From Fodinisporobacter ferrooxydans (GTDB taxonomy: Bacteria; Bacillota; Bacilli; Tumebacillales; MYW30-H2), in the NCBI RefSeq assembly GCF_022818495.1, contig NZ_CP089291.1:4419501-4483500 (forward strand): 64,000 bases of DNA, written 5' to 3'. The notes below the pieces were generated by a model, which was given only the letters and a program-made list of their open reading frames with translations, was not told the DNA's origin and did no database searches. Positions 31,049-47,184 of this stretch are shown here, piece by piece (the first letter of the stretch is position 1; each line of letters starts with the position of its first letter). The position numbers were made by a program, and so were the translations under genes.

Positions 31049-31060
31049 GTATTCTCCCCC

Positions 31061-32945: not shown

Positions 32946-33002
32946 TCAGAAATTCAATCATGTTTCGGTTATAATAGATACGAATTTCCAATCAGATGAT
33001 AA

Positions 33003-34172
33003 ATGGATGTGTTATATTTGAACAAAATCGAATTAATTGCTACAACACCCTTTGGATTAGAATCGGTCGTAGCAAGGGAAATCAAGCAGTTAGGGTATGA
33101 AGAGATCACGGTTGATATCGGAAAAGTTACATTTGCTGGTGACGAAAAGGCAATTTGCCGATCGAATTTGTGGTTGCGAACGGCAGATCGTGTACTGGTC
33201 AAGATGGGGGAATTTCAAGCCACAACGTTTGAAGAGCTGTTTGAACAAACGAAAGCATTAGCTTGGGAAAACTGGTTGCCGGAAGATGCCGCATTTCCTG
33301 TTGAGGGACGATCCGTAAAATCCATGTTATCGAGCGTACCTGCATGCCAGGGAATTGTTAAAAAAGCGATCGTCGAAAAATTAAAGGAAACGTATAAACG
33401 AGAATGGTTCGATGAGACCGGACCGCAATACTCCATTGAAGTTTCCATTCATAAAGATGTTGCTACACTTACGATTGATACGAGCGGTGCCGGCTTGCAT
33501 AAACGCGGATATCGCAAATTATCCGCAGAAGCGCCACTCAAAGAAACACTGGCAGCGGCGATTGTTTTACTCAGTCGTTGGACGCCAGACCGCCCCTTGT
33601 ATGATCCATTCTGCGGCTCCGGTACGATTCCAATTGAAGCAGCCATGATCGGAAAAAATATTGCACCCGGATTGCAAAGAGAATTCGATGCGCAATTTTG
33701 GCCGACGATTCACGAAAAACTTTGGCAAGAAGCAGAGGACGAAGCTTTTGATTTGGCCAATAACCAACAAGAATTGTCTATTTTTGGTTCCGATATCGAT
33801 TCGAATGCGATTGCAATGGCTCAGACACATGCAAATATCGCAGGTTTGAAACATGATATTCGTTGGCAGGTTCAACCTGTCAGCAATCTGCAGTTGGATC
33901 AAAAATACGGCTGTTTAATCGGCAATCCTCCATATGGTGAACGTCTTGGAGAGATGCGAGAGATAGAAGCATTATATCGGCAATTCGGCAGTATTATAAA
34001 AACATCGGTGGATCCAACCTGGTCCGTATTCATTTTGACTTCTCATCCGGAATTTGAACGATTGTTTGGCAAACGCTCAGATAAAAAGCGCAAACTTTAC
34101 AATGGTCGTATACAATGCAACTTATATCAGTATTTTGGCCCTTTTCCGCCTCGCGGATCTAAGAATTCTTAG
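33003..34172 (+). CDS. THUMP-domain class I methyltransferase, RlmL/YpsC-type 23S rRNA (guanine-N2) methyltransferase
   Basis: This roughly 385-residue rRNA methyltransferase has an N-terminal ferredoxin-like/THUMP RNA-binding part (IELIATTPFGLESVVAREIK; TIDTSGAGLHKRGYR near residue 160). The SAM-binding Rossmann domain has motif I DPFCGSGTIPIEAAMIG near residue 200, FGSDIDSNAIAMA near 265 and catalytic motif NPPYGERLG near 310. It modifies a guanine in 23S rRNA, as YpsC of Bacillus and the N-terminal half of RlmL do. The start is uncertain: ATG 33003 has no clear ribosome site, and TTG 33018 follows GGATGTG and matches the usual MNKIELIAT beginning. Confidence 0.9.
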   Translation: MDVLYLNKIELIATTPFGLESVVAREIKQLGYEEITVDIGKVTFAGDEKAICRSNLWLRTADRVLVKMGEFQATTFEELFEQTKALAWENWLPEDAAFPVEGRSVKSMLSSVPACQGIVKKAIVEKLKETYKREWFDETGPQYSIEVSIHKDVATLTIDTSGAGLHKRGYRKLSAEAPLKETLAAAIVLLSRWTPDRPLYDPFCGSGTIPIEAAMIGKNIAPGLQREFDAQFWPTIHEKLWQEAEDEAFDLANNQQELSIFGSDIDSNAIAMAQTHANIAGLKHDIRWQVQPVSNLQLDQKYGCLIGNPPYGERLGEMREIEALYRQFGSIIKTSVDPTWSVFILTSHPEFERLFGKRSDKKRKLYNGRIQCNLYQYFGPFPPRGSKNS

Positions 34173-34177
34173 AAACA

Positions 34178-34223
34178 AAATCCCCCATCAACCGAATGTC
34201 AGATTCAGGGTGAGGGGGGGGTT
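34178..34223. terminator. Terminator between the methyltransferase and DUF1275 genes
   Basis: AATCCCCC at the left arm pairs with GGGGGGTT at the right arm across a 25-30 base loop region, between converging genes. Tracts of A and T flank it. Confidence 0.6.
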
Positions 34224-34237
34224 TATGATCCACTCGT

Positions 34238-35068
34238 TCACATACTGATTTCCGTTTTTCGCTCCATTGCGGAACGTATTTCATATGCGCCGGATGTTGC
34301 GATAACAATACACACAATCGCAATAGGAAGCCAAATGGCTTGTAAATACCAATGATGTACGAAGACTCCACAAATCGCTGCTCCAATGCCGTAAAACACG
34401 ATCACCGCAATCCACATGACAATCGATGCGATGGACGTTGCATTTCCTTTTTTTCCGAATACTGGGTCGCGCTTGTGAGATGAAGAAGAAGTGGATAAAC
34501 GCGAATCCTCAAATTTCCATACCAATGTTTCTACCAATCCTGTCAGTGTACTTGTAATAACCGTAGTTGTGACACCGTTCACTCCAATTCTTCTCGCCGT
34601 AATCCCTTGTACCCCCATCGCAAAAGCCAGGAGGAAAAGCAAAACATCCGCCATGGCTCCTTGCGCCTTGATATTTGACATGGCTAGAACAATACCGGCA
34701 AACAAAACGAGTGCGGCCAATTCCACACAGAGGGAAGCGGTTATCGTCCGGTTCCATCCGGTTCTATCCTGAATACGACGTAAGATTACGGCACCTGCCG
34801 CCGCTCCCACGATAAACCCCAGCAATGCCACCGCATACCCAAAGACAGACATTCCGTGTGTATTCACAACCGCTAACCCGAACAATACTGTATTTCCGGT
34901 CATTGCCGCCGTAAACACTTGCCCGAGGGCAAGAAAACCAATAGCGTCCACACAACCGGAAGTCATGGTCAGCAGCACCAGCAATACATTGCTCATCGTT
35001 CTCGACAATTTTATCAACTCTTTCACAAAATCTTTCACTTTACTATATCTGTTTACTATATCTTTCAC
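34238..35068 (-). CDS. DUF1275 (YoaK-family) membrane protein
   Basis: This six-to-seven-helix membrane protein of unknown function begins its core at VLLVLLTMTSGCVDAIGFLALG. The family motif MTGNTVLFGLAV and the ARRIGVNGVTTTVITSTLTGLVE segment near residue 165 are seen. A charged insertion (SRLSTSSSSHKRDP) interrupts the later part. The start is uncertain: GTG 35068 lies in a stretch of repeated AGTGAAAGAT units, while ATG 34996 would give a family-typical 252 residues. It follows the creatininase-family gene by 37 bases and may be the last gene of the GntR-controlled operon, possibly as an exporter or importer. Confidence 0.8.
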   Translation of the reverse strand: MKDIVNRYSKVKDFVKELIKLSRTMSNVLLVLLTMTSGCVDAIGFLALGQVFTAAMTGNTVLFGLAVVNTHGMSVFGYAVALLGFIVGAAAGAVILRRIQDRTGWNRTITASLCVELAALVLFAGIVLAMSNIKAQGAMADVLLFLLAFAMGVQGITARRIGVNGVTTTVITSTLTGLVETLVWKFEDSRLSTSSSSHKRDPVFGKKGNATSIASIVMWIAVIVFYGIGAAICGVFVHHWYLQAIWLPIAIVCIVIATSGAYEIRSAMERKTEISM

Positions 35069-35105
35069 TTTGCTCTTTCTTTCACGTTACTCTATCTTTT
35101 GCCTA

Positions 35106-35864
35106 TTAGTTTTCATTGAAATTCAACAGTTGGGAGACAGCTGCAACGATGTTCCCCAATGCTTCTTCCACAATCGCCTGCCCGGCATCGTAACTCGCTT
35201 TTGTGGCATCGCCGATGCATCCATTTGCTGTCATCTCATCGTAAAAATAAGTGCCTTGTACAGCATTGCCGGGTCGCAAAAGCTTCCACTTTCCTTCCTG
35301 AATGTCTCCGGGAGCCAATTGATCTTCTCGAATCAACTGCGGGGCCAGATAGTAAGCTTCCGATACTTCTCGCTCACAGCTATGTCCAAACAGAGTAGAT
35401 TTGACATGTTCTTGTATCGCTTTTTTCGCCGAAGCGGTTGTTTTCGCTAGATAGATTTCTATGCCAAGCTCATGTGTTAACGTAGTACAGGCAACACTCA
35501 ATGTCGATTGGTTGCCTCCGTGTGAATTGACCAGCAAGAATTTTTGAATGCCATGTTGCTTTAACGACCAAACCATATCGCGTATCACTGCAATCAATGT
35601 TTCAGGACGGAATGTTAACGTTCCGGGAAAATGGATATGATGAATCGATACTCCAATTGAAATACTCGGGGTTACTAACACATGCGGATATAACCGTTCT
35701 CCCAGTTTGCGAGAGAACTTATCAGCCAAAACATCATCACAGCTTTCTGTCAAATGAGGACCATGCTGCTCATGTGCCCCGACAGGAATGATGGCAATTT
35801 TTACTGTTTCCAACGCTTGTTTTACTTCAGGCCAAGTCATGTCCGAAAGATGATACATTGCCAC
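35106..35864 (-). CDS. Creatininase-family amidohydrolase
   Basis: This 252-residue protein has the family's metal site: IPVGAHEQHGPHLTESCDDV (Glu, His, Asp), HHIHFPGTLTF, LVNSHGGNQST (His) and GHSCEREVSEAYYLAP (Glu). Members hydrolyse cyclic or linear amides such as creatinine and formamides, or mature peptides (MftE). The GTG start at 35864 follows AAGGGG at seven bases; the internal ATG at 35858 is less well placed. In this operon it could cleave an amide after oxidation by the di-metal enzyme at 38868-39587. That role is inferred. Confidence 0.88.
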   Translation of the reverse strand: MAMYHLSDMTWPEVKQALETVKIAIIPVGAHEQHGPHLTESCDDVLADKFSRKLGERLYPHVLVTPSISIGVSIHHIHFPGTLTFRPETLIAVIRDMVWSLKQHGIQKFLLVNSHGGNQSTLSVACTTLTHELGIEIYLAKTTASAKKAIQEHVKSTLFGHSCEREVSEAYYLAPQLIREDQLAPGDIQEGKWKLLRPGNAVQGTYFYDEMTANGCIGDATKASYDAGQAIVEEALGNIVAAVSQLLNFNEN

Positions 35865-35910
35865 TTCAATACCCCTTCCGACTCTCTAATGTCTTTTTTT
35901 GCTATCCAAT

Positions 35911-36201
35911 TCAGTTTTCCTGCAAAAGTTCAATATCATGCGTAATCCATAATTGGCATGTTAAACGATAGCCATTTTTCAGTTTTTCTTCGCCTAATCG
36001 TTTTACTTCTTTCCAGTTCGGCTCAGGCAAATGTTCTCCGCCAGCCAGAACGCGCGAAACACAGCGGGTGCATCTCCCCATCCCGCATCCATACCGAATC
36101 TGAGGAAACTTCTTGGTTCCTGCCAAAACTACCAAATTACTATTCTCAGGCACCTCTTGTTCATAGATTTGTCCGTTTCGGTGCAACCTGACTTTGGGCA
36201 T
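35911..36201 (-). CDS. [2Fe-2S] ferredoxin (first of a pair)
   Basis: This 96-residue plant-type ferredoxin has a cluster loop YGCGMGRCTRCVSRVLAGG near residues 38-56 and the fourth cysteine in GYRLTCQLW near residue 80. The CxMGxCxxC spacing (three cysteines in the loop) is that of adrenodoxin/plant-type domains. It is a stand-alone electron carrier with no reductase domain. It is adjacent to another ferredoxin of the same type, with 27 bases between them, which suggests a two-step electron supply or a heteromeric oxidase partner. Confidence 0.88.
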   Translation of the reverse strand: MPKVRLHRNGQIYEQEVPENSNLVVLAGTKKFPQIRYGCGMGRCTRCVSRVLAGGEHLPEPNWKEVKRLGEEKLKNGYRLTCQLWITHDIELLQEN

Positions 36202-36228
36202 TGTCCATTCACCTCGAATATTTCGTCT

Positions 36229-36570
36229 TCATTCGGCTTTTCTTTCCCAATACTCTTTCAGTTTTTGCGAGTATTTCACTGTAATATTGGAATCCCAGGA
36301 AACTTCCACATCCCCTTTTGCGAACGTCTGGCATGCCAAGCGATATCCGTTATATACATCCTCACCCAATCGGGCGATTTCCGCTTTTTTAATCGCAGAA
36401 AGATTTTCTGCTCCTTCTTCGATATAAATTTTGCAAGTTCCACATAAACCCCCGCCACACCGGTAGGGGATCCCACCTTCATAACGAATGGATGTCCGCA
36501 GGATATTGGTTTCTTTCCCATCCTCAATCTCAATCGATCGGTTCGAACAGGAAAAATGAATCCTTGCCAT
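36229..36570 (-). CDS. [2Fe-2S] ferredoxin (second of a pair)
   Basis: This 113-residue ferredoxin begins MARIHFSCSNRSIEIEDGKE and has the cluster loop YRCGGGLCGTCKIYIEEGAE with a fourth cysteine in GYRLACQTF. It carries a C-terminal extension (KYSQKLKEYWERKAE) absent from its neighbour. The frame is open to 36591, but GAGGAGG lies about ten bases before ATG 36570. It probably passes electrons to the di-metal oxidase of this operon; no ferredoxin reductase gene is seen nearby. Confidence 0.88.
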   Translation of the reverse strand: MARIHFSCSNRSIEIEDGKETNILRTSIRYEGGIPYRCGGGLCGTCKIYIEEGAENLSAIKKAEIARLGEDVYNGYRLACQTFAKGDVEVSWDSNITVKYSQKLKEYWERKAE

Positions 36571-36648
36571 GACAGACGACCTCCTCGGCATAGTATGCCT
36601 TACATGATTTCCAGATCTTCCTTTTTACAATTGCATTTCACGGTAGAA

Positions 36649-37128
36649 TCAAAATTTTAAATCCGCTTCCGCCATGACCGTATAACCTGCCGGTGCCAGA
36701 GCTTCTTTCAGAGCTGCCAATGCAGCCGTTCCTACAGCCGTATCCTGCTCGCCGTTTCCGCCGCTGATTCCTATGCCGCCAATCACTTCCCCATCGACCA
36801 CTACCGGAAATCCACCGACGAAAATCGCAAATTTGCCTGGAAACATCAGTTGAATCCCGTATGCTTCATTTCCCGGCAATGCCGGCCCTTTGGGTTCCGT
36901 ATTGAACAAATGTGTGGAACGTTTGTGCCCGGCTGCCGTAAAAGCTTTGGCAATCGCAATTTCCGGACCGGTGATTCGCGCCCCATCCATCCGTTCCAAT
37001 GCAATCAAATGTCCGCCGTCATCCACAATCGCAATCGTTTCATTGACTTGGATGTCTGCCGATTTTTTCTTGGCTGCTTCAATCATGATTTTTGCTTCGT
37101 TTAATTCCAGTTTAAGGATTTGTTTCAT
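36649..37128 (-). CDS. GlcG/HbpS-family (DUF336) heme-binding-like protein
   Basis: This 159-residue single-domain protein has AIVDDGGHLIALERMDGARI near residue 35, EIAIAKAFTAAGHKRST, FVGGFPVVVDGEVIGGIGIS and GTAALAALKEAL, all typical of the GlcG/HbpS/PduO C-terminal family. Members bind heme or corrinoids or have unknown roles in catabolic operons such as glc. GGAGGGG precedes ATG 37128. It lies between the aldehyde dehydrogenase and the ferredoxins and probably supports redox chemistry or cofactor handling in the pathway. Confidence 0.87.
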   Translation of the reverse strand: MKQILKLELNEAKIMIEAAKKKSADIQVNETIAIVDDGGHLIALERMDGARITGPEIAIAKAFTAAGHKRSTHLFNTEPKGPALPGNEAYGIQLMFPGKFAIFVGGFPVVVDGEVIGGIGISGGNGEQDTAVGTAALAALKEALAPAGYTVMAEADLKF

Positions 37129-37194
37129 CCCTATCCCCTCCGATTTTTCATCCGTCCTGGGCGCAAAATATCGAAATCTTCAACCGCCCAATCC

Positions 37195-38658
37195 TCAATA
37201 TCCAAAATAAACCGTTTTTGTTTGTGTGAAAAATTCCAATCCCACACGCCCGGACTCTCGAAATGTTGATGTGCTTGACTTTTTCAACCCGCCAAATGGC
37301 GCATGCATGAGATTTCCGGTCGTTGTGCGATTGACCTTCACCGTTCCGGATTGAATCTCCTTGACAAAGGTTTGCGCTTTTTCCAAATCCTTTGTCACGA
37401 TCGACGCAGACAATCCATATGCCACACCATTGGCGACTTGCAATGCGTCGTTGAAACTGTCAACCGCAATCACAGCAATGACAGGGCCAAATATTTCTTC
37501 CTGGGCGATTCGCATATGTGAAGCAACGCCTGTAAAGATGGCTGGTTTGACATAATATCCTTTGCCATATTCATTTTCGGTTAGGCGATCACCGCCATAG
37601 ACCAAATTTGCCCCTTCTTCCCGGCCAATCGCCACATATTCCAGAACCGTATCCAACTGACTTTGGTTAGCCAAGGGCCCCACCTGAACTCCTTCAGCAA
37701 AACCGTTCCCGATCTTCAGACGGCTTGTTTGATCAACCAGCTTTGCAACAAATTCATCATGGACGTTTCTCATGACAATGACACGACTGGTTCCCGTACA
37801 CGCTTGCCCGGTGAGTTCGAAACCGCCTTTGATCGTCAATTCAACCGCTTTGTCCAAATCTGCATCCTCCATGACAAGAATCGGATTTTTTCCCCCAAGT
37901 TCCATTTGCATTCTTGTCGTAAGGGAAACCTGCCGATGAATCGCTTCACCCGCTTGCGTAGACCCGGTAAATGTAATTCCGCGGATGGCAGCATCTGTAA
38001 CGAGCGGGGTTCCGACTTTTGCCGCAGACCCGGTAATAAAATTGAATACACCTGCCGGAATGCCGGCATCCGCAAGCGCTTCGGTCAATCGCAATCCCAT
38101 TAGCGGCGTTTCCGAGGCCGGTTTAAATACGACGGTGTTGCCTGTCATCAGTGCCGGAGCGATCTTTCTGGCCGGTATGGAGAGAGGAAAATTCCAAGGG
38201 GTGATCACCGCTATCACACCTAAAGGTTCCCGAACTGTGAACACCATAGAGGCAGGATCGTCGTTTGCAAATGTTTCGCCGCTAAAGCTCAAACCTTCTA
38301 CCGCATAATACCGCAACGTCGCGGCGGAACGTTTCACTTCCAGGCGGCTGGCCGACAGTACTTTTCCTTCTTCCCTCGTCAACTCATGAGCAATTTCTTC
38401 GCATCGGCTTTCCAAAATATCTGCCGCTTGGTTCAGAATAGCGGCACGTTTCGATGGAGACGTCTTTGCCCAGGCCGGAAACGTTTTCTCGGCAGCACGG
38501 ATGGCACGAATCGCGTCTTCTGCCGTAGACGCCTGAAAACACCCGACAATATCTTCCCGATCAGCAGGATTCATGCTGTGAAATACGTTCCCATCAGAAG
38601 AATCAACCCACTGCCCATCGATATAATTCTTGTACGCCGTCACTTGAACTCCGATCAC
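37195..38658 (-). CDS. NAD(P)-dependent aldehyde dehydrogenase (2-oxoglutarate-semialdehyde-dehydrogenase-like)
   Basis: This 487-residue enzyme shows KNYIDGQWVDSSDG, the PWNFPLSIPARKIAPALMTG segment, FTGSTQAGEAIH, general-base glutamate in ELGGKNPILV near residue 260 and catalytic cysteine in TGQACTGTSRVIV near 295. It ends APFGGLKKSSTSTFRESGRV. Sequence feel is closest to Bacillus YcbD-type 2-oxoglutarate semialdehyde dehydrogenases, so a dicarboxylic semialdehyde is a fair guess. GTG 38658 has AGGTG before it; GTG 38643, preceded by GGAG, is an alternative. It is separated from the di-metal oxidase gene upstream by 209 bases with a strong hairpin. Confidence 0.9.
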   Translation of the reverse strand: MIGVQVTAYKNYIDGQWVDSSDGNVFHSMNPADREDIVGCFQASTAEDAIRAIRAAEKTFPAWAKTSPSKRAAILNQAADILESRCEEIAHELTREEGKVLSASRLEVKRSAATLRYYAVEGLSFSGETFANDDPASMVFTVREPLGVIAVITPWNFPLSIPARKIAPALMTGNTVVFKPASETPLMGLRLTEALADAGIPAGVFNFITGSAAKVGTPLVTDAAIRGITFTGSTQAGEAIHRQVSLTTRMQMELGGKNPILVMEDADLDKAVELTIKGGFELTGQACTGTSRVIVMRNVHDEFVAKLVDQTSRLKIGNGFAEGVQVGPLANQSQLDTVLEYVAIGREEGANLVYGGDRLTENEYGKGYYVKPAIFTGVASHMRIAQEEIFGPVIAVIAVDSFNDALQVANGVAYGLSASIVTKDLEKAQTFVKEIQSGTVKVNRTTTGNLMHAPFGGLKKSSTSTFRESGRVGLEFFTQTKTVYFGY

Positions 38659-38755
38659 AATTTCACCTGCTTTACGTGGTATCGACGATTCGATTCTATG
38701 CGTTCATTCCCGTATATTCACACACTTGTCTTTTCACACGCCGGTTCTTTCGTAC

Positions 38756-38788
38756 ACCGGCAGTTTCCTTCATCAAAAAACTGCCGGT
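38756..38788. terminator. Strong hairpin between the di-metal oxidase and aldehyde dehydrogenase genes
   Basis: A perfect 11-bp stem (ACCGGCAGTTT with AAACTGCCGGT) is followed on the plus strand by TTTTTGTTTTTTC, a full terminator for rightward transcription. Both flanking genes run leftward, where no U-run follows. In the operon mRNA it would act as a stabilising or processing hairpin. The 209-base gap (38659-38867) holds no gene. Confidence 0.65.
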
Positions 38789-38867
38789 TTTTGTTTTTTC
38801 AATTCCCATTTTGCAAATCGTTGCTGTTGCATGATTGCGTAGTTGTACTTGCGAGCCGCAATTGCAA

Positions 38868-39587
38868 TCAGGCGTTAATACTTTCCAAATCTGGCTGCAC
38901 GTACGTACGGTATAGACCGTCCATATACATCCATCTCATTTTGGCGCCAGTACGAACAACTTCCAGACAACGTTGTTGCAGTTCAGGAGTATTGGCATAA
39001 TCGAGTACAATTTGGAATCCGCGCTCTCCGTGGATCTCGTCAGACACGATATGAAGATCGAAGAATTCCACTTCCTCATCTGTGAAACGATAGGTTTCTT
39101 TGAGCGGCGGCAATTGTTTGCGATAAATATCCGGCACCTGTGATTCAAGGCCGACAATCAATGCGGCAGTCGCAACCACAAAGTGTTCACGAAACGCTAT
39201 AGCATAGCACCAACTTTGCAGACCTAACGTTGTCGGACACATGTTGGCAGGATCTGTTACCCGCTCACCTGTTGTCCCGCATGCTTCTGCGAATCGAATC
39301 AACAAATCGGTGTGACGGGTTTCGGCAATTTCTTCTTCATACATATTTTGCAGGATAAAGTCTTTGGCATCTGTGTTAGCATCTGGTATATTCGCATAAA
39401 TGTAAGCGAGATAATCTGCAAATGGACCTACATAGTGGTAATGATTTTCTGCCCAACGAGCAAAATGTTCGCGTTTTAATTGTCCGTTTGCCCAAGCAAG
39501 GCTAAATGGAGCTACTGCACTGTGCTTGCCTTTGATCGCTTCTTCCAACTGGTTACGAAATTCATCACGGGATAATAATTCTGCCAT
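38868..39587 (-). CDS. Heme-oxygenase-fold di-metal oxidase (PqqC/CADD/TenA-like)
   Basis: This 239-residue all-helical protein carries the complete ligand set of the heme-oxygenase-like di-metal oxidases: E85-x6-H92 (EEIAETRH), E148 (VGLESQ) and H179-x3-D183-x2-H186 (HIVSDEIH). The spacing equals that known for CADD. Such enzymes use two iron or iron/manganese atoms and O2 for oxidative C-C or C-N cleavage, N-oxygenation or decarboxylation; PqqC-type relatives lack the metal site. A perfect AAAGGAGG lies before ATG 39587. It is the first gene of the operon holding two ferredoxins and an aldehyde dehydrogenase, and its promoter region has two GntR operators. It is likely the key oxidative enzyme; the substrate is unknown. 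Confidence 0.85.
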   Translation of the reverse strand: MAELLSRDEFRNQLEEAIKGKHSAVAPFSLAWANGQLKREHFARWAENHYHYVGPFADYLAYIYANIPDANTDAKDFILQNMYEEEIAETRHTDLLIRFAEACGTTGERVTDPANMCPTTLGLQSWCYAIAFREHFVVATAALIVGLESQVPDIYRKQLPPLKETYRFTDEEVEFFDLHIVSDEIHGERGFQIVLDYANTPELQQRCLEVVRTGAKMRWMYMDGLYRTYVQPDLESINA

Positions 39588-39630
39588 TTTAATCTCCTCC
39601 TTTTTTAGGGCCGGCATCTCGCTTTCAATC

Positions 39631-39643
39631 GTATATTGTATAC
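39631..39643. promoter_or_regulatory. GntR operator GTATATTGTATAC, 44 bases before the di-metal oxidase gene
   Basis: Arms GTATA and TATAC flank a TTG centre. It lies just downstream of a possible minus-strand -10 TATAAT (39646-39651), where a bound regulator would block initiation or elongation. Confidence 0.7.
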
Positions 39644-39718
39644 CGATTATACTTGTTAAAACTTCGAGTACCCTTCCCTTTGCTCATTTCTCTTTCTTGT
39701 ATTACTCTATTTTTTATC

Positions 39719-39733
39719 GGTATATTGTATACC
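39719..39733. promoter_or_regulatory. GntR operator GGTATATTGTATACC (di-metal oxidase operon, upstream copy)
   Basis: Fifteen bases with 6-bp inverted arms; the reverse complement is identical to the site at 40883-40897. It lies 89 bases upstream of the copy at 39631. Confidence 0.78.
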
Positions 39734-39851
39734 AAATATGATGATTAAATATTACAAATATTAAAATAATAAGTCAACCACTTTTTTCATAAATTTTTCA
39801 TATATTACGCCTTACGCCGAATTGACTGCAGGAAGCCGCACGTAGATAAAA

Positions 39852-39881
39852 AAATAAAGGCGGAGATTCCAGCCTTTATTT
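39852..39881 (-). terminator. Terminator overlapping the end of the gntR gene at 39876
   Basis: AAATAAAGGC (39852-39861) pairs with GCCTTTATTT (39872-39881), and seven T residues follow in the leftward direction. The right arm includes the gntR stop codon. Confidence 0.85.
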
Positions 39882-40544
39882 ATATGTCTCCAAATATGAC
39901 TTTTTTGAATTTTCGATATGAACCTTCATCAGGCTTTCCGCCAGTTCGATTTCGCCATTTCTTACAGCCTTGGCAATTTCGAGATGTTCCTTAAGCACCT
40001 GTTGTCTTCTCCCGGGCAATTCATGGCTGACATTCGCAAACGCTCGGATATAATCATATAAACTGCTGATCATTTCATACAACTTAGGGCTGCCGGCCTC
40101 TTTGATAATCGTGTCAATGATGTAAATATGAAACTGTTCGTTGTCTTCTGCCTGATTATCGCCGGATACTACTTGATTGATCTCCGAAATCAACAAATCT
40201 AATCGAGATCCATGCCCCTCATTGATTCTTTGTGCAGCTAATTTAACAGCCAATCCCTCTAAAACAGACAGGATTGTAAAAATCTCGATGATTTCACCCG
40301 GGGACATTTGGGAAACGATTACACCTTTTCTGGGAAGTGTTTTAACAAATCCTTGTGACTCGAGACGAAACAACGCTTCGCGAATCGGTGTGCGGCTGAT
40401 ATTCAATTTTTCGGACAAATCCCGCTCCACTATCCGCTCTCCGGCTTTTAATTCGCCATCGATGATCGCCTGTTTGATATATTGGTAAACCTTATCCCGG
40501 ATGGGACTTAATTCGTCTTTGTCCCATTGGTTTTGATCATTCAT
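39876..40544 (-). CDS. GntR-family regulator (FadR/FCD type) of the oxidase-transporter regulon
   Basis: This 222-residue regulator has a winged helix (VYQYIKQAIIDGELKAGERI, LSEKLNISRTPIREALFRLE, GFVKTLPRKGVIVSQMS). A helical FCD ligand domain follows, with metal-site residues suggested by NEQFHIYIID and the C-terminal EHLEIAKAVRNGEIE. AAGGAG precedes ATG 40544. It lies between the two divergent catabolic operons, and GTATA-TTG-TATAC palindromes occur before all three units of the region and upstream of itself. FCD regulators usually bind carboxylates, so the inducer may be an acidic substrate or intermediate (inference). Confidence 0.92.
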   Translation of the reverse strand: MNDQNQWDKDELSPIRDKVYQYIKQAIIDGELKAGERIVERDLSEKLNISRTPIREALFRLESQGFVKTLPRKGVIVSQMSPGEIIEIFTILSVLEGLAVKLAAQRINEGHGSRLDLLISEINQVVSGDNQAEDNEQFHIYIIDTIIKEAGSPKLYEMISSLYDYIRAFANVSHELPGRRQQVLKEHLEIAKAVRNGEIELAESLMKVHIENSKKSYLETYK

Positions 40545-40690
40545 TTTTTTACTCCTTCCTCTGATTGGTCCGCAAATTCCAGTCCTCGATGACGAGCAAA
40601 AAGAATCCCTGATACATCAGGAAATTCTGTATGCTTTGCCCGATTGATGTCTGTGCCAAAAATAAAGCCTGCAATATTTCTTTCAAATGA
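40541..40690 (-). pseudogene. Startless coding-like frame upstream of gntR
   Basis: The leftward frame from 40690 reads SFERNIAGFIFGTDINRAKH, then TEFPDVSGILFARHRGLEFA and DQSEEGVKK to a TGA that overlaps the gntR ATG. It is protein-like and open for over 70 codons back to a stop near 40759, but contains no ATG, GTG or TTG. It is probably the tail of a lost gene formerly coupled to gntR. The family is not recognised. Confidence 0.35.
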
Positions 40691-40705
40691 CGTTAGAATG
40701 TCTAT

Positions 40706-40720
40706 AGTATATTGTATACT
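40706..40720. promoter_or_regulatory. GntR operator AGTATATTGTATACT upstream of gntR
   Basis: Inverted arms extend to ATAGTATA and TATACTAT (40704-40722). The site lies 162 bases before the gntR start and would permit autoregulation. Confidence 0.72.
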
Positions 40721-40861
40721 ATTCTTTCTTTCATTTCCAGATCTTTGCCTTGTTACTTGTTATACTCACCACCATCCGAATCTTACTCACCATCCTCCCA
40801 ATCCTACTACAAATTTGCGCACATATACTTCATTTCTTTCAATTGACCGTACGTTCCACCT

Positions 40862-40890
40862 TTGATACAATGACTTTAATTTGGTATACA
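40862..40890 (+). promoter_or_regulatory. Promoter of the aspartate-dehydrogenase-like operon
   Basis: TTGATA (40862-40867), a 17-base spacer and TATACA (40885-40890) form a good sigma-A promoter 30 bases before the gene. The -10 box lies inside the GntR operator at 40883-40897. Confidence 0.75.
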
Positions 40891-40897
40891 ATATACC
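40883..40897. promoter_or_regulatory. GntR operator GGTATACAATATACC over the -10 box
   Basis: This is the reverse complement of the site at 39719-39733. Its overlap with the -10 element implies repression when the regulator is bound. Confidence 0.8.
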
Positions 40898-40918
40898 TAT
40901 TATAAAAGGAGGAGTACC

Positions 40919-41719
40919 ATGCTTACAGTTGGCATCATCGGCTATGGAAGTATTGGTAGAGATGTTTCGAATTATATCGTTACGGATCGTGCAGGAAACG
41001 TTGAATTGCAGGCAATATTGGTAAGAGATAGGAAACAAATAGCCTCCCATTTGCCCGCTCCTCTTTTTGAAGATCAAGCGGATCGCTTCTTTGCTCGCGG
41101 ATTCGATATCGTTGTCGAAGCGGCCGGTCATAATGCGGTAAAACAGTTTGCAGAACGTTCGCTGCGCGGCGGAAGTGATTTTATTGCAGTAAGTGTCGGA
41201 GCGTTTGCCGATCGCGAATTATATGAAAAAACCCTTAAAATTGCCGCAGAGACGGGAAAACGTTTAATTATTCCTTCCGCTTCCATCGGCGGGCTGGATC
41301 GAATTGCTGCCGCAGCCGTGGGAACGATCGAACACGTTACATTAACTTCCAAAAAACCCCCACGGGCATGGTATGGCACGATTGTTGAGCAGCGCATCGA
41401 TTTGGAACAAGTCACGGAGCCTGTTTGTGTATTTGAAGGTCCTGCAAGGGAATCGGCGCTTCTTTTCCCGGAAAGCATCAACGTTTCTGCTGCCTTGAGC
41501 CTAGCCGGTATCGGTTTTGATAAAACGAGCGTACGTGTATTTATCGATCCGACTGTAAGCAAAAATACGCATCACATTTCCGCATCCGGAAGTTTTGGAG
41601 AAATTCAACTGGAATTGAGCAATATACCGTCAGCCAATCCCAAAACTGGCTATATTACGGCAATGAGCATTGCCAAGGTCTTGAAAAATCTTTCCACTCC
41701 TTTGATGATTGGGTTATAG
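40919..41719 (+). CDS. Aspartate-dehydrogenase-like (NadX-family) amino-acid dehydrogenase
   Basis: This 266-residue NAD(P)-dependent enzyme has an N-terminal Rossmann motif VGIIGYGSIGRDVSNYI, VVEAAGHNAVKQFAE and SVGAFADRELYE. The C-terminal catalytic domain has PSASIGGLDRIAAAAVG, ESINVSAALSLAGIGFDKT, SKNTHHISASGSFG (active-site His) and the family end SNIPSANPKTGYITAMSIAK. Aspartate dehydrogenases interconvert L-aspartate and iminosuccinate/oxaloacetate plus ammonia. Here no nadA or nadC is adjacent and the promoter is controlled by the catabolic GntR. A role in releasing or fixing ammonia from a pathway amino acid is therefore more likely than NAD synthesis. AAGGAGGAG precedes the ATG. Confidence 0.88.
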   Translation: MLTVGIIGYGSIGRDVSNYIVTDRAGNVELQAILVRDRKQIASHLPAPLFEDQADRFFARGFDIVVEAAGHNAVKQFAERSLRGGSDFIAVSVGAFADRELYEKTLKIAAETGKRLIIPSASIGGLDRIAAAAVGTIEHVTLTSKKPPRAWYGTIVEQRIDLEQVTEPVCVFEGPARESALLFPESINVSAALSLAGIGFDKTSVRVFIDPTVSKNTHHISASGSFGEIQLELSNIPSANPKTGYITAMSIAKVLKNLSTPLMIGL

Positions 41720-41786
41720 AATCTATCTTGTTCTTGGAAACGGCAAAGAATCTATGACTGACAATACCAGAAAAGAAGGTATGATA

Positions 41787-43208
41787 ATGAAAGATTCTTA
41801 TTCCCGTCTGCTGAATCGTATTTACATCATCACGATCTCCTTTTATTTGCTGACGATCCTTTTGCCTAACCCCAATTGGTTTCACAACGTGATTTCGATT
41901 CTGACAATTCTCTGTTTGCTCGTTTCCATTCCCGTTGCGAGCATGCTTGTGAAATGGATCAGTATTCTTTTTTTGCTGGGAGGAAGTATTCTGGTATTTT
42001 CTCATGGCGGCTCCTTTTCCTCCATGTACCTCCTTTTTGGAAAAATGCTCGATTTATTGACACTCTTTACACTCATTCCATGTATGGCAATCCCGATTCA
42101 GATCGGGAACTACTCCCCGTCCATTCTGCAATTGATTTCTCGCTATTCGGGAGACGAGCAAAAGTTTTATCATGCAATCACTCTGATTGGGTATGCATTG
42201 GCAAGCATCATGAATCTGGCCGCTCTGCCGATGACCTATTACAGCATTCAGCCGGCATTAAAAAAGTTTTATATTCAAAATGAGGACCGATTTTTGTCGA
42301 CCAGCATTACCCGGGGGTTTGCCATGCCATTAGTTTGGAGTCCGGTAGCCGCCATAGTCGGGGCTGTCGTACAGATCACCCATGCCGGCTGGTTTTGGAT
42401 TTTGCCCTTTAGCTTGCTGCTTAGCGCCATCGGTATTGCGCTCGGATTGTTGTTCTCACCAAGGAAGTCCAACTCATCTCTGGAAGCGTCTGCCGCCTCT
42501 ACCAGTCATGCGGTTGAGACAGTCAAAGCCGATCCAATCGCCGAGGCTGCTGCAAACCCGGTATTGAAATTAGGCCAAATGGGACTTGGCATTCTCTTAT
42601 TTGCCATCCTGATGACCGGTTTGCAGCAGATGGAATCTTTATCGATTGTATCCGCTGTATCAATTCTCGCTCTTCCCTTTTCCTTCGTGTGGGCAGTTTT
42701 TTTACGGAAACAAAAGCAATTTATACAATCCGGAAAAAAACAACTATCTCAATTGGCAAACATGCAGGATCAGTTTGCCGTTTTTTTATGTGCCGGATTT
42801 TTTGTGGATGCACTTCAGATGTCCGGGGTAGCTCCAAGCATCGATCAATTCTTGGTGCATGTGAGTCACCGAATTGGCACTGCCTGGTTTTTAATGTTGA
42901 TTCCGCTGATTCCTGTATTCCTTTCTCTTGTGGGCATGCATCCGCTTGTTTCGATCGCATTGCTTGGCGAATCCCTGGATCCCAGAATGATCGGCATTCG
43001 TCCGGAATGGGTAGCTGTCGCTTTTCTCGGAGGAGGTGTTACAACCTTTCTTCTGAGTCCTTTCAATGCAACATTGACCATTATGAGCGGAATCATGAAA
43101 CGGAGTCCCTTTGAACTTGCGAAATGGAATCTTCCCTTTTGCGCTCTCTATCTTGTGACTGTAATCCTGCTTGTATCATTTTTAAATCTGTTTTGGCCAC
43201 ATGGATAG
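41787..43208 (+). CDS. Polytopic membrane protein, probable transporter
   Basis: This 473-residue integral membrane protein has about 11-12 hydrophobic segments (for example IYIITISFYLLTILL, GLGILLFAILMTGL, FLMLIPLIPVFLSLVG) and a cytoplasmic linker rich in Ala/Ser near residues 230-270. The final third (GMHPLVSIALLGESL, FLGGGVTTFLLSPFNATLTI) resembles helix-break regions of ion-coupled carboxylate transporters, but I cannot assign a family. An open frame begins at 41709, overlapping the dehydrogenase. AGAAGG seven bases before ATG 41787 favours that start, with ATG 41781 as an alternative. Being second in the GntR-controlled operon, it may import or export a pathway compound. Confidence 0.75.
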   Translation: MKDSYSRLLNRIYIITISFYLLTILLPNPNWFHNVISILTILCLLVSIPVASMLVKWISILFLLGGSILVFSHGGSFSSMYLLFGKMLDLLTLFTLIPCMAIPIQIGNYSPSILQLISRYSGDEQKFYHAITLIGYALASIMNLAALPMTYYSIQPALKKFYIQNEDRFLSTSITRGFAMPLVWSPVAAIVGAVVQITHAGWFWILPFSLLLSAIGIALGLLFSPRKSNSSLEASAASTSHAVETVKADPIAEAAANPVLKLGQMGLGILLFAILMTGLQQMESLSIVSAVSILALPFSFVWAVFLRKQKQFIQSGKKQLSQLANMQDQFAVFLCAGFFVDALQMSGVAPSIDQFLVHVSHRIGTAWFLMLIPLIPVFLSLVGMHPLVSIALLGESLDPRMIGIRPEWVAVAFLGGGVTTFLLSPFNATLTIMSGIMKRSPFELAKWNLPFCALYLVTVILLVSFLNLFWPHG

Positions 43209-43248
43209 ACGAAAACACCCTCCGATCATTCGAAGGGTGTTTTCGTCT
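43207..43248. terminator. Terminator after the membrane protein gene
   Basis: A perfect 15-bp stem (43207-43221 with 43234-43248) with a 12-base loop starts at the stop codon of the membrane protein gene, between converging units. Confidence 0.85.
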
Positions 43249-43333
43249 GGATAAAAATTTTTCCAGGATCCGTAGCGATAGGCACCGATTGCAGGGGATG
43301 GCACGAGTATTTATTGGCAATTGCCTATGCCTG

Positions 43334-44167
43334 CTATAGCCCCTCGCTGCGTTTTGTCTTTTCCACCTCTTGCTTGAGCATCCCCCATATTTCGTTGAAT
43401 AACTCCTGGAAACGGGGACTGTTTCGAACTTCCTCGATGCGCCGGGGCCTGGGCAAATCAATCTTGAATGAGCATTTGATCGTTCCCGGATGTGCGGTCA
43501 TCACCACGATCCGATCGGCCAGAAAAATCGCTTCATCGATACTATGTGTAATGAAGGCAACTGTTTTTCGGCTTTCTTCCCAAATACGTACAAGTTCTTG
43601 CTGAAGGATGATACGGTTTTGTTCGTCAAGCGCTGCAAATGGCTCATCCATGAGAAGAATCTCCGGATCGTTGGCAAACGCCCGTGCGACGCTGACCCGC
43701 TGTTTCATTCCCCCGGACAATTGGTGCGGATAGGAATTCGCGAATTTTGTGAGGCCTGTTTTGGCAAGAAAATGATTCACAGTTTCTTCTACTTGTCTTT
43801 TGGGTACCTTGCGCATATTGAGACCGTACGCAATATTTTTCTTTACAGTCATCCATGGAAATACGGCGTGCTCCTGAAATACCATCGAGTTCAGCGGTTT
43901 ATTTACATTGTGATGAATCATGTTCATGCTGCCTGTGGAGGGCTGCTCCAGTTGTGCCAGAATGCGAAGAAGTGTTGTTTTTCCACACCCGCTTGGCCCT
44001 ACGATACATACAAACTCTCCTTCTGCTATCGCAAGATCCACATGTTCCACGGCCGTAACGATATTTTTTTTCACCTTGAATTGCTTTCCAATGCCTTGCA
44101 GAACGATCTTGTTGACTTTGGGCTGCAGTATCTCGATTCTATTCAGGTTTTCCATCGGCAAACTCAT
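43334..44167 (-). CDS. NitT/TauT-family ABC transporter ATPase
   Basis: This 277-residue single ATPase domain shows Walker A GPSGCGKTTLLRIL near residue 58, Q-loop MVFQEHAVFPWMTV, signature LSGGMKQRVSVARAFA and Walker B ILLMDEPFAALDEQ with the H-loop FITHSIDEAI. These are the features of SsuB/TauB/NrtD-type importers of sulfonates, nitrate, cyanate, thiamine precursors and aromatic acids. GGAGG precedes ATG 44167. It is the last gene of the binding protein-permease-permease-ATPase operon. Confidence 0.93.
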   Translation of the reverse strand: MSLPMENLNRIEILQPKVNKIVLQGIGKQFKVKKNIVTAVEHVDLAIAEGEFVCIVGPSGCGKTTLLRILAQLEQPSTGSMNMIHHNVNKPLNSMVFQEHAVFPWMTVKKNIAYGLNMRKVPKRQVEETVNHFLAKTGLTKFANSYPHQLSGGMKQRVSVARAFANDPEILLMDEPFAALDEQNRIILQQELVRIWEESRKTVAFITHSIDEAIFLADRIVVMTAHPGTIKCSFKIDLPRPRRIEEVRNSPRFQELFNEIWGMLKQEVEKTKRSEGL

Positions 44168-44183
44168 TGGACATCCTCCTTAT

Positions 44184-45011
44184 TCATTTTCTCTTCCAAG
44201 GAACGACCAGCATTTCTATCTCATCGACGAGTATGCTGAATATGTAGCCGAGTGCAGACATGAGGACGAAGGATACGAACATCGTAGACATGTCGTACAC
44301 TTCATACGACATCCAAATGCGATATCCGATCCCAGACTGTGCACCGACCATCTCCGCTGCAACGATCAGAAGCAGCGCTTCGGCGACTCCGATTTTAAGA
44401 CCGGTAAAAATCATGGGAATGGATCCGGGGATCGCCACTGTACGGTAATACTCCAGTTTTGATGCGCCGAAATTTTTCGCCACATCCAGATAACGTGAAT
44501 CCAGTTCCAAAACACCCGCAGCTGTGTTTATGAGCACAGGATAAACGACGCCAAGAGCGATAAGCACGATCTTTTCCGTTTCACCAAGTCCAAAAATAAT
44601 CATTAAAAGAGGCATGATAGCCAGTTTTGGAATGGGGTATGTGGTGTAGACTATGGGCTCAATCAAAGCGCGCATGAATGGAAACAACCCCACGCTGAGC
44701 CCAAGGACCACGCCGGGAACCGCACCGAATACAAATCCTAATGCAATCCGGTATAAACTGGTTTTGATATCTTCGACGAGGACTCCTGAAGCAAGATGAC
44801 TGATCATTGTTGATACAATGGTGGTTGGCGTCGGAAAGTCTTTTACATTGATCCAATGAAGAATGCCAAGGATCTGCCAGATGAGGAGGAGCAAAATTGG
44901 CGATCCGACAGCAAGAAGACGTCTGCGCTGGACGGGGTTTAATCCGAGTTTCAGGTTTTCGATCTGTGTACCGTTCACGGTAACAACCTTTGTGACTTGA
45001 AGTGTTGACAT
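44184..45011 (-). CDS. NitT/TauT-family ABC permease 2
   Basis: This 275-residue permease has about six membrane helices and the EAA loop DVAKNFGASKLEYYRTVAIP near residue 190 that docks on the ATPase. Its N-terminus MSTLQVTKVVTVNGTQIENL closely matches the neighbouring permease, and the two align over their whole length at 275 residues each, so they arose by tandem duplication. AGGAGG precedes ATG 45011. It lies 14 bases after its paralogue. Confidence 0.92.
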   Translation of the reverse strand: MSTLQVTKVVTVNGTQIENLKLGLNPVQRRRLLAVGSPILLLLIWQILGILHWINVKDFPTPTTIVSTMISHLASGVLVEDIKTSLYRIALGFVFGAVPGVVLGLSVGLFPFMRALIEPIVYTTYPIPKLAIMPLLMIIFGLGETEKIVLIALGVVYPVLINTAAGVLELDSRYLDVAKNFGASKLEYYRTVAIPGSIPMIFTGLKIGVAEALLLIVAAEMVGAQSGIGYRIWMSYEVYDMSTMFVSFVLMSALGYIFSILVDEIEMLVVPWKRK

Positions 45012-45025
45012 GTTTTATCGCCTCC

Positions 45026-45853
45026 TCACCGCTGTTTCCAAGGAATCAGCCGCACTTCCACTTCATCTACAAGTACAGTCGCAATATATCCAAGTAGTGC
45101 CAATAACCCGAAAGATACAAACATCGTCGTAATATCAAAAAGGTCATAGGAAGTCCAAATTCGATATCCGATTCCGGCAGAAGCTCCATGCATTTCGGCA
45201 GCAACCAACAGCAGGACTGCCATGCCAATGCCGAGGCGAAGTCCTGTAAAGATCATGCTGAGTGATCCGGGAATCGCCACTGTGCAGTAATAATTGAACT
45301 TGGAAGCGCCAAAGTTCTTTGCAACATCCATATATCGTTTATCCAGATTCAAAACACCCGCGGCTGTATTGATGACAACAGGGAAGATTACACCGAGCAT
45401 AATGACGATGACCTTTTCTTTTTCCCCAAGTCCGAAAATCAGCATGATCAGCGGCATCAATGCCAGTTTTGGAATCGGATAAAGGGTTGCGACGATGGGT
45501 TCAAAAATCGCTCGCACAATCGGAAAAAGGCCCATGCTGAGTCCGAGAATAACACCAGGGACTGCTCCGGCAAAGAAACCGAGAATGACACGCAACATGC
45601 TTGATTTTAAATCGATGGCGATTTGTCCCGTGGCAATTGCCTTTATATACGCTTGAACAATGGTACTGGGGGCGGGGAAGAACATGGCATTCAGAACACC
45701 GATTCGAACGAGAAGCTCCCAGATCACCAAAAGGACGATGGGGGAAATGACCATCATCAACCGTTTGCGCTGCTTTTCAGTCATAGTTGCTTTCACTGTT
45801 TCGATTTCGGTACCCGTGACAGTAACAATTCTTGACGCCTGAATGGTCGACAC
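45026..45853 (-). CDS. NitT/TauT-family ABC permease 1
   Basis: This 275-residue permease is paralogous to the gene downstream, with the EAA loop DVAKNFGASKFNYYCTVAIP and GAVPGVILGLSMGLFPIVRA. The open frame extends to 45952, but alignment with the paralogue (VSTIQASRIVTVTG versus MSTLQVTKVVTVNG) and an AAAGGAGG site place the start at GTG 45853. Two different permeases would form a heterodimeric channel, unusual for this family, where a homodimer is common. Confidence 0.92.
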   Translation of the reverse strand: MSTIQASRIVTVTGTEIETVKATMTEKQRKRLMMVISPIVLLVIWELLVRIGVLNAMFFPAPSTIVQAYIKAIATGQIAIDLKSSMLRVILGFFAGAVPGVILGLSMGLFPIVRAIFEPIVATLYPIPKLALMPLIMLIFGLGEKEKVIVIMLGVIFPVVINTAAGVLNLDKRYMDVAKNFGASKFNYYCTVAIPGSLSMIFTGLRLGIGMAVLLLVAAEMHGASAGIGYRIWTSYDLFDITTMFVSFGLLALLGYIATVLVDEVEVRLIPWKQR

Positions 45854-45878
45854 ACAACATCCTCCTTTACAATCCTCG

Positions 45879-45912
45879 AAAAGGAAAGGGGATGCTCCCC
45901 CCTTCCTTTTTT
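45879..45912 (-). terminator. Intercistronic hairpin after the binding-protein gene
   Basis: AAGGAAAGGGG pairs with CCCCTTCCTT in the 70-base gap between binding-protein and permease genes, with T runs on both sides. In the leftward direction TTTTCG follows the stem. It probably gives partial termination or mRNA protection so the binding protein is made in excess. Confidence 0.55.
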
Positions 45913-45923
45913 TTCTTCTTAAT

Positions 45924-47033
45924 TTATTTCTGAGGTTTTTGGTATTTTCCAAGTTTTTTCAAGGCATAATCGGCATAGGATGGATCGACCAGATTATCAA
46001 CATTGGTTTTCTTCTTCACCATGCCTTGTGCGGCATACCAGTTTTGATCGTTGACTACGCCATCTTTCGGAATCTGACCGTTCGGATCAAGAAAAGGAGG
46101 ATTCATTTTTTGGTACGTCTTGGGGTCATTGACAAACGTTTCTTTGGTGAGAATTTTGATAATCTTATCTCTATCTTTGTTTCCATAAATGATGGCATCG
46201 TCATAAGCACGTACGCCTTGAAGATATGCGACCATGAATCGATTGCCAAGATCTTTGTTATCTACGAGTTTTTTACCATATGCAATGGTAGAAATCTCTT
46301 CATCAGGCGCATAATCTTTTGGATTTTTCCACCAGGAATAAACACCTTGATCGACACCGCTGGTAATGAGAGGTTCAATTTGCACTGCCGCATCCATCGC
46401 GCCCGTTTTCACACCCGTTAACAAATCCGGAAACGAATCGACGATGACTTCCTTGACGTCTTTTGTGGTTAGTCCACCTTTTTCAAGCGCTTTGCTCAGA
46501 AACATTTCATTGATGGAACCTTTGGAGGCAATTCCTACTTTCAAACCTTTCAGATCTTTGTAATCTTTTACTTTGTTTGCAAGTTTTTTGCTGACAACAA
46601 GCGCAAAATACGGTTTGTCAGGCAGATTCTGCCCACCATCAGCAGCGAGCCGGATTGGTACACCTCTGGCGGCAGCGTTGAACAGGCCTGCACTGATGAC
46701 CGTTCTGGCCACATCGATTTGACCGGAAGCCAATGAAGTCAGCATATCCGCTCCAGAAGCGAATTTCTCGTAATCGACTTTGATCCCCTGTTTTTGAAAA
46801 TATCCGAGTTTCATTCCAAGAATGAGTCCAGCTTCCGCCGGAGCGTTATCCATGGCAACTTTCACAACGGTGAGTTTGCCATTGCCATTTCCGCTGCCGT
46901 TATCTGCAGATGCTGATGCTGATTTCGATCCCCCGGCAGTTGATGTTCCACAACCTGCAAGAATGAGAGATACTGCCATGCCTGTTGTGAAAAGTCCGAC
47001 TCCAACTTTCTTTGATGGTTTCCATGCCAACAT
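45924..47033 (-). CDS. NitT/TauT-family ABC substrate-binding lipoprotein
   Basis: This 369-residue lipoprotein has signal WKPSKKVGVGLFTTGMAVSL, lipobox LAGC (cysteine near 27) and a Ser/Gly/Asn-rich linker. The fold is NMT1/SsuA-like: VAMDNAPAEAGLILGMKLGY, SGADMLTSLASGQIDVART, KDLKGLKVGIASKGSINEMF and GVKTGAMDAAVQIEPLIT. GGAGG lies six bases before ATG 47033; the longer open frame to 47186 has no such site and reaches the operators. Ligands of this class include sulfonates, nitrate, pyrimidines, and aromatic or heterocyclic acids. The promoter region carries two GntR operators, tying uptake to the oxidase operon. Confidence 0.9.
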   Translation of the reverse strand: MLAWKPSKKVGVGLFTTGMAVSLILAGCGTSTAGGSKSASASADNGSGNGNGKLTVVKVAMDNAPAEAGLILGMKLGYFQKQGIKVDYEKFASGADMLTSLASGQIDVARTVISAGLFNAAARGVPIRLAADGGQNLPDKPYFALVVSKKLANKVKDYKDLKGLKVGIASKGSINEMFLSKALEKGGLTTKDVKEVIVDSFPDLLTGVKTGAMDAAVQIEPLITSGVDQGVYSWWKNPKDYAPDEEISTIAYGKKLVDNKDLGNRFMVAYLQGVRAYDDAIIYGNKDRDKIIKILTKETFVNDPKTYQKMNPPFLDPNGQIPKDGVVNDQNWYAAQGMVKKKTNVDNLVDPSYADYALKKLGKYQKPQK

Positions 47034-47168
47034 ACATTCCTCCCAATGCTGAAGTAAGAGTTCAATCAGTGATTGATGTCGGGAAATCAGGTGAGTGATG
47101 CTGCGAAAGCAATCTACCTCCTTGCGGTGAATCTGATGGGATTGGGAGAGCCATTGTAAAATGTCAAA

Positions 47169-47184
47169 TTGTATTTTGTATACC
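47169..47184. promoter_or_regulatory. GntR operator TTGTATTTTGTATACC (ABC importer, proximal)
   Basis: It shares TTGTATACC with the sites at 39719-39733. An identical 16-base copy lies at 47391-47406. It is 136 bases before the binding-protein start. Confidence 0.65.

Follow-up and report, generated by a model that had tools for sequence, protein, structure and literature searches.

A gene at positions 38868 to 39587 of the window, i.e. of the whole stretch of 64,000 nucleotides of Fodinisporobacter ferrooxydans DNA that was analysed, had been described in a first-pass annotation as encoding a PqqC/CADD-like protein with a complete set of di-metal ligands, probably an oxidase drawing electrons from the ferredoxins of its operon. 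The locus raises the question of what such a protein might do with oxygen, and in which kind of pathway. The coordinates were found to be correct. The gene is encoded on the minus strand; when read on the other strand, the same interval gives stops. The product of 239 amino acids starts with the ATG at 39587 (residue 1), with AAAGGAGGAG located 5' of it, and matches the Pfam family Haem_oxygenas_2 (8.9e-35). It is referred to as HDO below.

Metal ligands and predicted fold of HDO

Residues 85, 92, 148, 179, 183 and 186 of HDO are E, H, E, H, D and H, so that the CADD-type set E-x6-H, E, H-x3-D-x2-H noticed at first is indeed present. The spaced six-residue motif arose in 24 of 100,000 shuffles of HDO's own residues. 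Across the fetched loci, with 4,846 ORFs, it was detected in 103, of which 102 belong to the HDO family. In a family profile made from 22 orthologues, all six residues (E85, H92, E148, H179, D183 and H186) fall on the positions that hold the ligands in CADD and in the 4-aminobenzoate synthase 9pj4, whereas PqqC is devoid of the six ligands in the same alignments. Close homologues without the ligands would have spoken against the assignment; in the search for them, all six residues were conserved in 51/51 orthologues of the tree, as well as in alignments A1 (22 sequences) and A2 (42 sequences), the three sets being overlapping ones. The 3-His/3-carboxylate ligand set of HDO is complete and invariant, and we infer that the six residues bind two metals. 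Leu147 and Phe175 of HDO occupy the metal-preference positions Phe148 and Phe177 of NePabS, where a change from Phe to Tyr shifts Fe/Fe towards Mn/Fe. The presence of Leu and Phe at these positions suggests that an Fe/Fe site is more likely than Mn/Fe in HDO.

The best PDB relatives by sequence were 9pj4 (2.1e-25) and CADD (1.7e-16), followed by PqqC. An AlphaFold2 model of HDO was produced with 42 orthologues (pLDDT 92.3, pTM 0.88), and CADD was ranked at the top by Foldseek against the PDB. Superposition of the model with VIA-align gave Z 28.3 for CADD (1.5 A, 213 residues), 27.1 for PqqC (2.2 A, 228 residues), 25.6 for UndA (2.0 A, 227 residues), 24.7 for HrmI (2.6 A, 223 residues), 21.5 for BesC and 19.9 for PolF. 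The predicted model displays the heme-oxygenase alpha7 fold in comparison with CADD, PqqC, UndA and HrmI. The structural comparison with CADD and UndA that had been proposed as a check thus returned a model that is CADD-like in its whole fold, and the predicted convergence of the six residues in one site rests on this whole-fold superposition together with the sequence alignment.

Genes surrounding HDO in the window

HDO is followed on the minus strand by genes for an aldehyde dehydrogenase (ALDH, 37195–38658), for which the nearest NCBIfam model is alpha-ketoglutaric semialdehyde dehydrogenase (592 bits, below the cut-off of 770), an HbpS/GlcG/DUF336-family protein (36649–37128; Pfam 1e-35; PDB relatives 2a2l, PduO-C, EfgA and NahX), the two plant-type [2Fe-2S] ferredoxins FdA (36229–36591; Pfam Fer2 6e-11) and FdB (35911–36201; Fer2 5.7e-8), and a creatininase-family amidohydrolase (35106–35864; Pfam 3.5e-61; PDB 3no4, 1.6e-25). 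FdA likely starts with the ATG at 36570, with GAGGAGG ahead of it. Two of the five Fer2 matches in the window's genome sit in the HDO cluster. No reductase gene was found in the window or in any of the Bacilli clusters.

On the other side of HDO, a GntR/FCD regulator is encoded on the minus strand (39876–40544; Pfam FCD and GntR). It is followed on the plus strand by aspartate dehydrogenase (AspDH, 40919–41719; NF009828 224.8, above the cut-off of 177; PDB 2dc1, 4.4e-39) and by T9, a membrane protein which is probably a transporter (41709–43208; no Pfam match at 0.001, the best one being at 0.044). NadB, scoring over its cut-off, is encoded elsewhere in the genome. AspDH is therefore not needed for NAD synthesis and is free for catabolism, and its identity as an NAD-biosynthesis gene was discarded. 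An ABC importer is encoded further on the minus strand, with ORFs for an ATPase (43334–44167), a permease (44184–45011) and a second permease that is 60% identical to the first (45026–45952), as well as an SsuA/NMT1-type substrate-binding lipoprotein (45924–47186; Pfam NMT1 1.3e-19; SsuA_fam 77 bits, under the cut-off; with relatives in the PDB). The likely true start of the lipoprotein is near 47033, downstream of the longest-ORF start. A relative of the ATPase with 73% identity was identified in genome G288 beside a substrate-binding protein and AspDH.

The gap of 209 bp between HDO and ALDH contains a 14-pair hairpin without T run (38756–38788, minus strand; predicted fold of 38720–38867, z −2.33), which may act in the processing or stability of the mRNA and could separate the HDO mRNA from the downstream genes. 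No riboswitch reached the gathering score in 33000–49000, and promoter and terminator scans remained at chance level. A sugar/inositol-type cluster is located upstream (21603–32053); from ORF reading it comprises LacI regulators, an ABC sugar transporter, Gfo/Idh oxidoreductases and sugar-isomerase-like proteins.

Distribution of HDO and its conserved company

HDO is present in a single copy in the window's genome and belongs to a tight clade with at least 65% identity across Bacilli, Burkholderiaceae and Actinobacteria, the next relatives being at about 30%. At this threshold, 19 of the 398 genomes of the class encode an orthologue (own genome included), as do 4 of 296 genomes in the class to which a Streptomyces carrier belongs (carrier included). 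In the phylum of an acidimicrobial carrier, 11 of 296 genomes gave a match at 1e-15, two of them at 71–74% identity (carrier included) and nine at 32% or less. Plasmid-borne relatives at 60–80% identity came from Cupriavidus and Caballeronia (6 records), and the other 17 records were below 27%.

The comparison covered 106 loci. Eighty loci were fetched as the best 80 of 538 relatives, at 71% identity or more, a selection in which identity is biased upward. The 106 loci are not independent: at least two genomes are represented twice (L026/L042 and L029/L047), L110 and L112 are near-identical, and many loci are from close Bacillaceae. A tree was calculated from 51 of the 106 loci, picked for spread, and three outgroup proteins; long branches separate the 51 HDO orthologues from the outgroup, a split that was fully supported in a bootstrap that had not settled. 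Gene content was recorded for the 89 loci flanked by 8 kb or more in both directions (17 of the 106 were left out because one flank fell short of 8 kb). To be scored as present, a gene had to lie no more than about 10 kb away and to reach half coverage, a rule by which a permease-like ORF of L120 was missed.

ALDH and the HbpS-like protein are encoded at 89/89 loci. An amidohydrolase was identified at 86 loci, its slot being occupied by three unrelated families (creatininase 77, GGT-like 8, alpha/beta hydrolase 1). A common permease was present at 82 loci, a GntR regulator of the window's type at 77, T9 at 71 and chromate-type transporters at 66. The imine-enzyme slot was filled at 70 loci (missing in 19), either by AspDH (65) or by an ornithine-cyclodeaminase-family protein (5), which takes this place in Burkholderiaceae. 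RidA was encoded at 41 loci and missing in 48.

Exchange of the ferredoxins

At least one [2Fe-2S] ferredoxin gene was detected at 88 of the 89 loci. Dedicated ferredoxin genes are thus conserved with the HDO gene, as expected for a ferredoxin-dependent multicomponent oxygenase. Two or more ferredoxins were found at 77 loci and fewer than two at 12, FdA being present at 81 and FdB at 68. The ferredoxin-free locus (L035) ends just past AspDH, where sister loci carry FdA, and 4 of 94 FdA matches failed the Cys-motif pattern.

The type of ferredoxin depends on the lineage. Those of Bacilli are plant-type, and Burkholderiaceae carry two plant-type ferredoxins together with a BenC/AntC-like reductase. 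Behind HDO, Streptomyces, Nonomuraea, Microtetraspora and others encode two Rieske ferredoxins with an HcaD/AndAa-like FAD reductase between them. Acidimicrobiia and a Pirellula (Planctomycetota) bin (L106, L117, L119, L148) have a mixed pair in this place, consisting of one ferredoxin of the plant type and one of the Rieske type; on the tree, whose bootstrap had not settled, the loci with the mixed pair make up a single clade inside the Rieske-Rieske lineage. Among the 89 loci, a gene for an NAD(P)H reductase was present at 7 from Actinobacteria and 3 from Burkholderiaceae. Because unrelated types of ferredoxin replace one another in the same slot, their job is most readily seen in feeding HDO, for which this replacement is strong, though indirect, evidence. 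The link to ferredoxins, at first drawn from adjacency, is thus reinforced by its conservation, by the swap of plant-type for Rieske ferredoxins in Actinobacteria and by the shared operators described below. The proteins of the putative electron supply are homologous to those of the multicomponent oxygenases HcaCD, AndAab and BenC (NADH reductase and [2Fe-2S] ferredoxins), in which the terminal oxygenase is of the Rieske type and not an HDO as here.

In Burkholderiaceae, a small protein of unknown family is encoded between the ferredoxin genes (L020:11078–11428, L021, L022, L044), and weak relatives of it are located near the cluster in some Bacilli. The small protein was rejected as an effector, as it occurs at only 4 of the 89 loci.

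A shared operator in the HDO regulon

A palindromic operator was recognised upstream of the cluster genes. It occurs on the minus strand twice upstream of HDO, as GGTATACAATATACG at 39630–39644 and as GGTATACAATATACC at 39719–39733, and once upstream of gntR (AGTATACAATATACT, 40706–40720), and on the plus strand upstream of AspDH (GGTATACAATATACC, 40883–40897). Two weaker, operator-like copies (GGTATACAAAATACA) lie on the minus strand upstream of the ABC importer genes, at 47170–47184 and 47392–47406. With up to 3 mismatches to GGTATACAATATACC, 11 matches were counted in the window (some of them on both strands) where 1.02 were expected, a number that none of 100 shuffles reached. The exact core has 5 matches in the 4.86-Mb genome, of which 4 are in this region. 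The fifth (G000:C1:3322323) lies inside flagellar genes and was taken as chance.

With up to 2 mismatches, GGTATACAATATACC was found at 421 sites in the 106 loci, compared to 4 for a reversed control pattern. The genes that start no more than 300 bp downstream of an operator were creatininase (74 loci), FdA (72), HDO (69), AspDH (56), FdB (46), the permease (35), T9 (21) and gntR (16), where an operator flanked by two divergent genes may be counted for each of them. At up to 3 mismatches, an operator precedes HDO at 93 of the 106 loci, compared to 463 of 6,806 background tiles. Nine of the 13 loci without it are actinobacterial ones of the Rieske type, and six Rieske-type actinobacterial loci carry a PucR-type regulator instead. 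Of 18 related genomes, 17 contained the pattern, whereas the control gave only 2 matches over all of them. The GntR regulator encoded beside HDO is the candidate reader of these sites. Since the operators are shared, HDO, the ferredoxins, the amidohydrolase, AspDH and the importers seem to be under the control of one signal.

Near-consensus matches to the operator number 9 and 11 in two genomes (G149 and G170; loci L180–L183), and most of them lie away from the HDO locus. Some adjoin distant T9-like transporters, at places where the partner genes of HDO are absent. These matches may mark paralogous GntR regulons.

Proposed role of HDO

We consider it probable that HDO activates oxygen within a ferredoxin-fed oxygenase system that belongs to a GntR-controlled catabolic regulon. 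The first-pass annotation had proposed an oxidase, and the neighbours point to more than that, namely to a catabolic oxygenase. In the proposed mechanism, the GntR regulator would bind GGTATACAATATACC and repress the genes until the substrate appears. Electrons from NAD(P)H would then pass via the ferredoxins to the dimetal site of HDO, in which the six residues would hold the two metals. HDO would reduce O2 and oxidise an imported small nitrogen-containing organic anion, thus starting its catabolism. The product would be, or release, an aldehyde to be oxidised by ALDH, the amidohydrolase would open an amide bond, and AspDH (or the ornithine-cyclodeaminase-family protein of Burkholderiaceae), along with RidA where present, would handle an imine or enamine. 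Counted against the catabolic reading are the lack of a reductase gene in the Bacilli clusters, the 12 of 89 loci with fewer than two ferredoxins, the gap of 209 bp between HDO and ALDH, and the loci devoid of AspDH/ornithine cyclodeaminase or RidA. One of the ferredoxins might serve another protein.

A more specific proposal is put forward tentatively, and we would not yet give it even odds. HDO could define a new class of multicomponent oxygenase, in which NAD(P)H, a reductase and interchangeable plant-type or Rieske ferredoxins supply a CADD-type diiron HDO that acts as the terminal oxygenase. Such a system would be catabolic, would have moved between phyla with its regulon, and would cleave a C-N or C-S bond of a small nitrogen-containing organic anion by oxygenolysis with release of an aldehyde. 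No such reaction is among the HDO chemistries that the consulted portions of the literature describe.

Relation to characterised HDOs

The accessible part of the HDO review mentions about a dozen characterised members with roles in biosynthesis and states that those studied work without a protein effector (PMC13108848). The present operon could accordingly make a small metabolite, its transporters then being exporters. A precedent is offered by the mangotoxin pathway, in which the acetylenase MboA acts with a dedicated NADH/flavin/Fe2S2 partner, MboB, possibly the first dedicated pair of an HDO and its redox partner as far as the available text goes (PMC13185094). HDO would resemble MboA in having a dedicated iron-sulfur partner. 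MboB is, however, a single NAD(P)H/flavin/Fe2S2 reductase, whereas free ferredoxins are encoded here, with separate reductases in some lineages only. The ligands E86/H89 of MboA follow E-x2-H and not E-x6-H, and MboA is biosynthetic, whereas HDO stands in a catabolic-looking setting. The conserved neighbourhood showed neither a ligase nor an NRPS or a carrier protein, and a binding-protein-dependent importer in two loci, along with ALDH, the amidohydrolase, AspDH and a GntR of the FCD type, also argues against biosynthesis, which we regard as unlikely.

UndA, HrmI, BesC and PolF have the fold in common with HDO at 12–17% identity, and the available parts of the texts on them describe no regulon like the one of HDO. 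A literature search, mostly of openly accessible papers, retrieved no publication on this operon. By its genetic context, HDO is a candidate terminal oxygenase in a catabolic system of several components. It represents a widespread clade whose setting points to catabolism and in which the ferredoxins were exchanged wholesale while HDO was kept. If this is true, a catabolic branch of HDO chemistry opens, a natural test bed for the uptake of electrons by HDOs from unrelated ferredoxins becomes available, and the operator and its regulator could be used to find the substrate through induction.

Predicted transport and nature of the substrate

The common permease (L042:8389–9888 and relatives) has no Pfam match at 0.001. 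Its model (pLDDT 84.8) displays a DASS/TRAP-type fold (dicarboxylate, sulfate, TRAP) and superposes with ArsB (Z 23.2, 4.5 A, 391 residues), NaS1 (Z 22.6, 4.3 A, 415 residues) and NaDC3 (Z 20.7, 4.5 A, 406 residues). Because of this fold, a small anion is the likely substrate; the fold is common to carriers of dicarboxylates, sulfate, sialic acid and isethionate, and does not narrow the substrate beyond that. The window and G288 encode the SsuA-type ABC importer and lack the common permease, which fits with the importer being another uptake route for the same substrate. Candidates from known pathways include pyrrole carboxylates, imidazole acetate, N-substituted aspartates and sulfonates, none of which is favoured.

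For a sulfonate, HDO would perform an oxygenolytic C-S cleavage yielding sulfite and an aldehyde. ALDH at all 89 loci, chromate-type anion transporters at 66, the SsuA-type binding protein and the match of the permease model to sulfate and isethionate transporters, among others, are in line with this chemistry. Since dicarboxylate carriers are equally near to the permease in fold, a gene for sulfite oxidation was not noted, and the amidohydrolase and AspDH better fit a nitrogen compound, a sulfonate appears improbable. An aldehyde intermediate would also agree with the HbpS-like protein. In the accessible part of the source, EfgA of the same family is reported to bind formaldehyde, and other members to belong to aldehyde pathways (PMC8153426).

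HDO could also be a metal-binding or regulatory relic, with the ferredoxins serving another enzyme of the cluster, since the accessible text on PqqC and TenA relatives describes them as functioning without metal (PMC13108848). The invariance of all six ligands is difficult to reconcile with a relic. Moreover, the NAD(P)-type ALDH is the only other redox enzyme common to the clusters of Bacilli, Burkholderiaceae and Actinobacteria, and in Actinobacteria the Rieske ferredoxin and the reductase are encoded directly downstream of HDO, which leaves a relic very improbable.

HDO and the pABA synthases

HDO is closest in sequence and fold to CADD and 9pj4, but a self-sacrificing pABA synthase for folate synthesis hardly comes into question, as its essential residues are replaced in 51/51 orthologues, the score against the NCBIfam CADD model (TIGR04305) is 97.7 bits for a cut-off of 200, and no folate genes are among the identified neighbours. 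NePabS sacrifices its Tyr25 and Lys159 and requires Tyr41, according to the accessible part of PMC11965152. The position of the sacrificial Tyr (Tyr27 in CADD, Tyr25 in NePabS) corresponds to residue 29 of HDO, which is T in 26, S in 24 and A in 1 of the 51 orthologues. The amino-donor Lys (Lys152 in CADD, Lys159 in NePabS) is replaced by Q158 and the second essential Tyr (Tyr41 in NePabS) by W45, Gln and Trp being conserved in 51/51. At the same three positions, Tyr, Lys and Tyr were found in all three outgroup proteins (L132–L134, about 30% identity). Hence HDO shares fold and ligand set with the pABA synthases (1rcw, 8va9, 9pj4), at about 24% identity to CADD, and differs from them in these residues and in its catabolic-looking regulon with ferredoxins. 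The CADD likeness proposed at first stands for fold and ligands and falls for the reaction. By ligands and predicted fold, HDO is a member of the HDOs, and by its residues it is no pABA synthase. PqqC displays the same fold, and its NCBIfam model (TIGR02111) gave 56.5 bits against a cut-off of 240. The match to PF03070 (TenA, 37.7 bits) is at superfamily level only, and the PqqC and TenA identities were both discarded.
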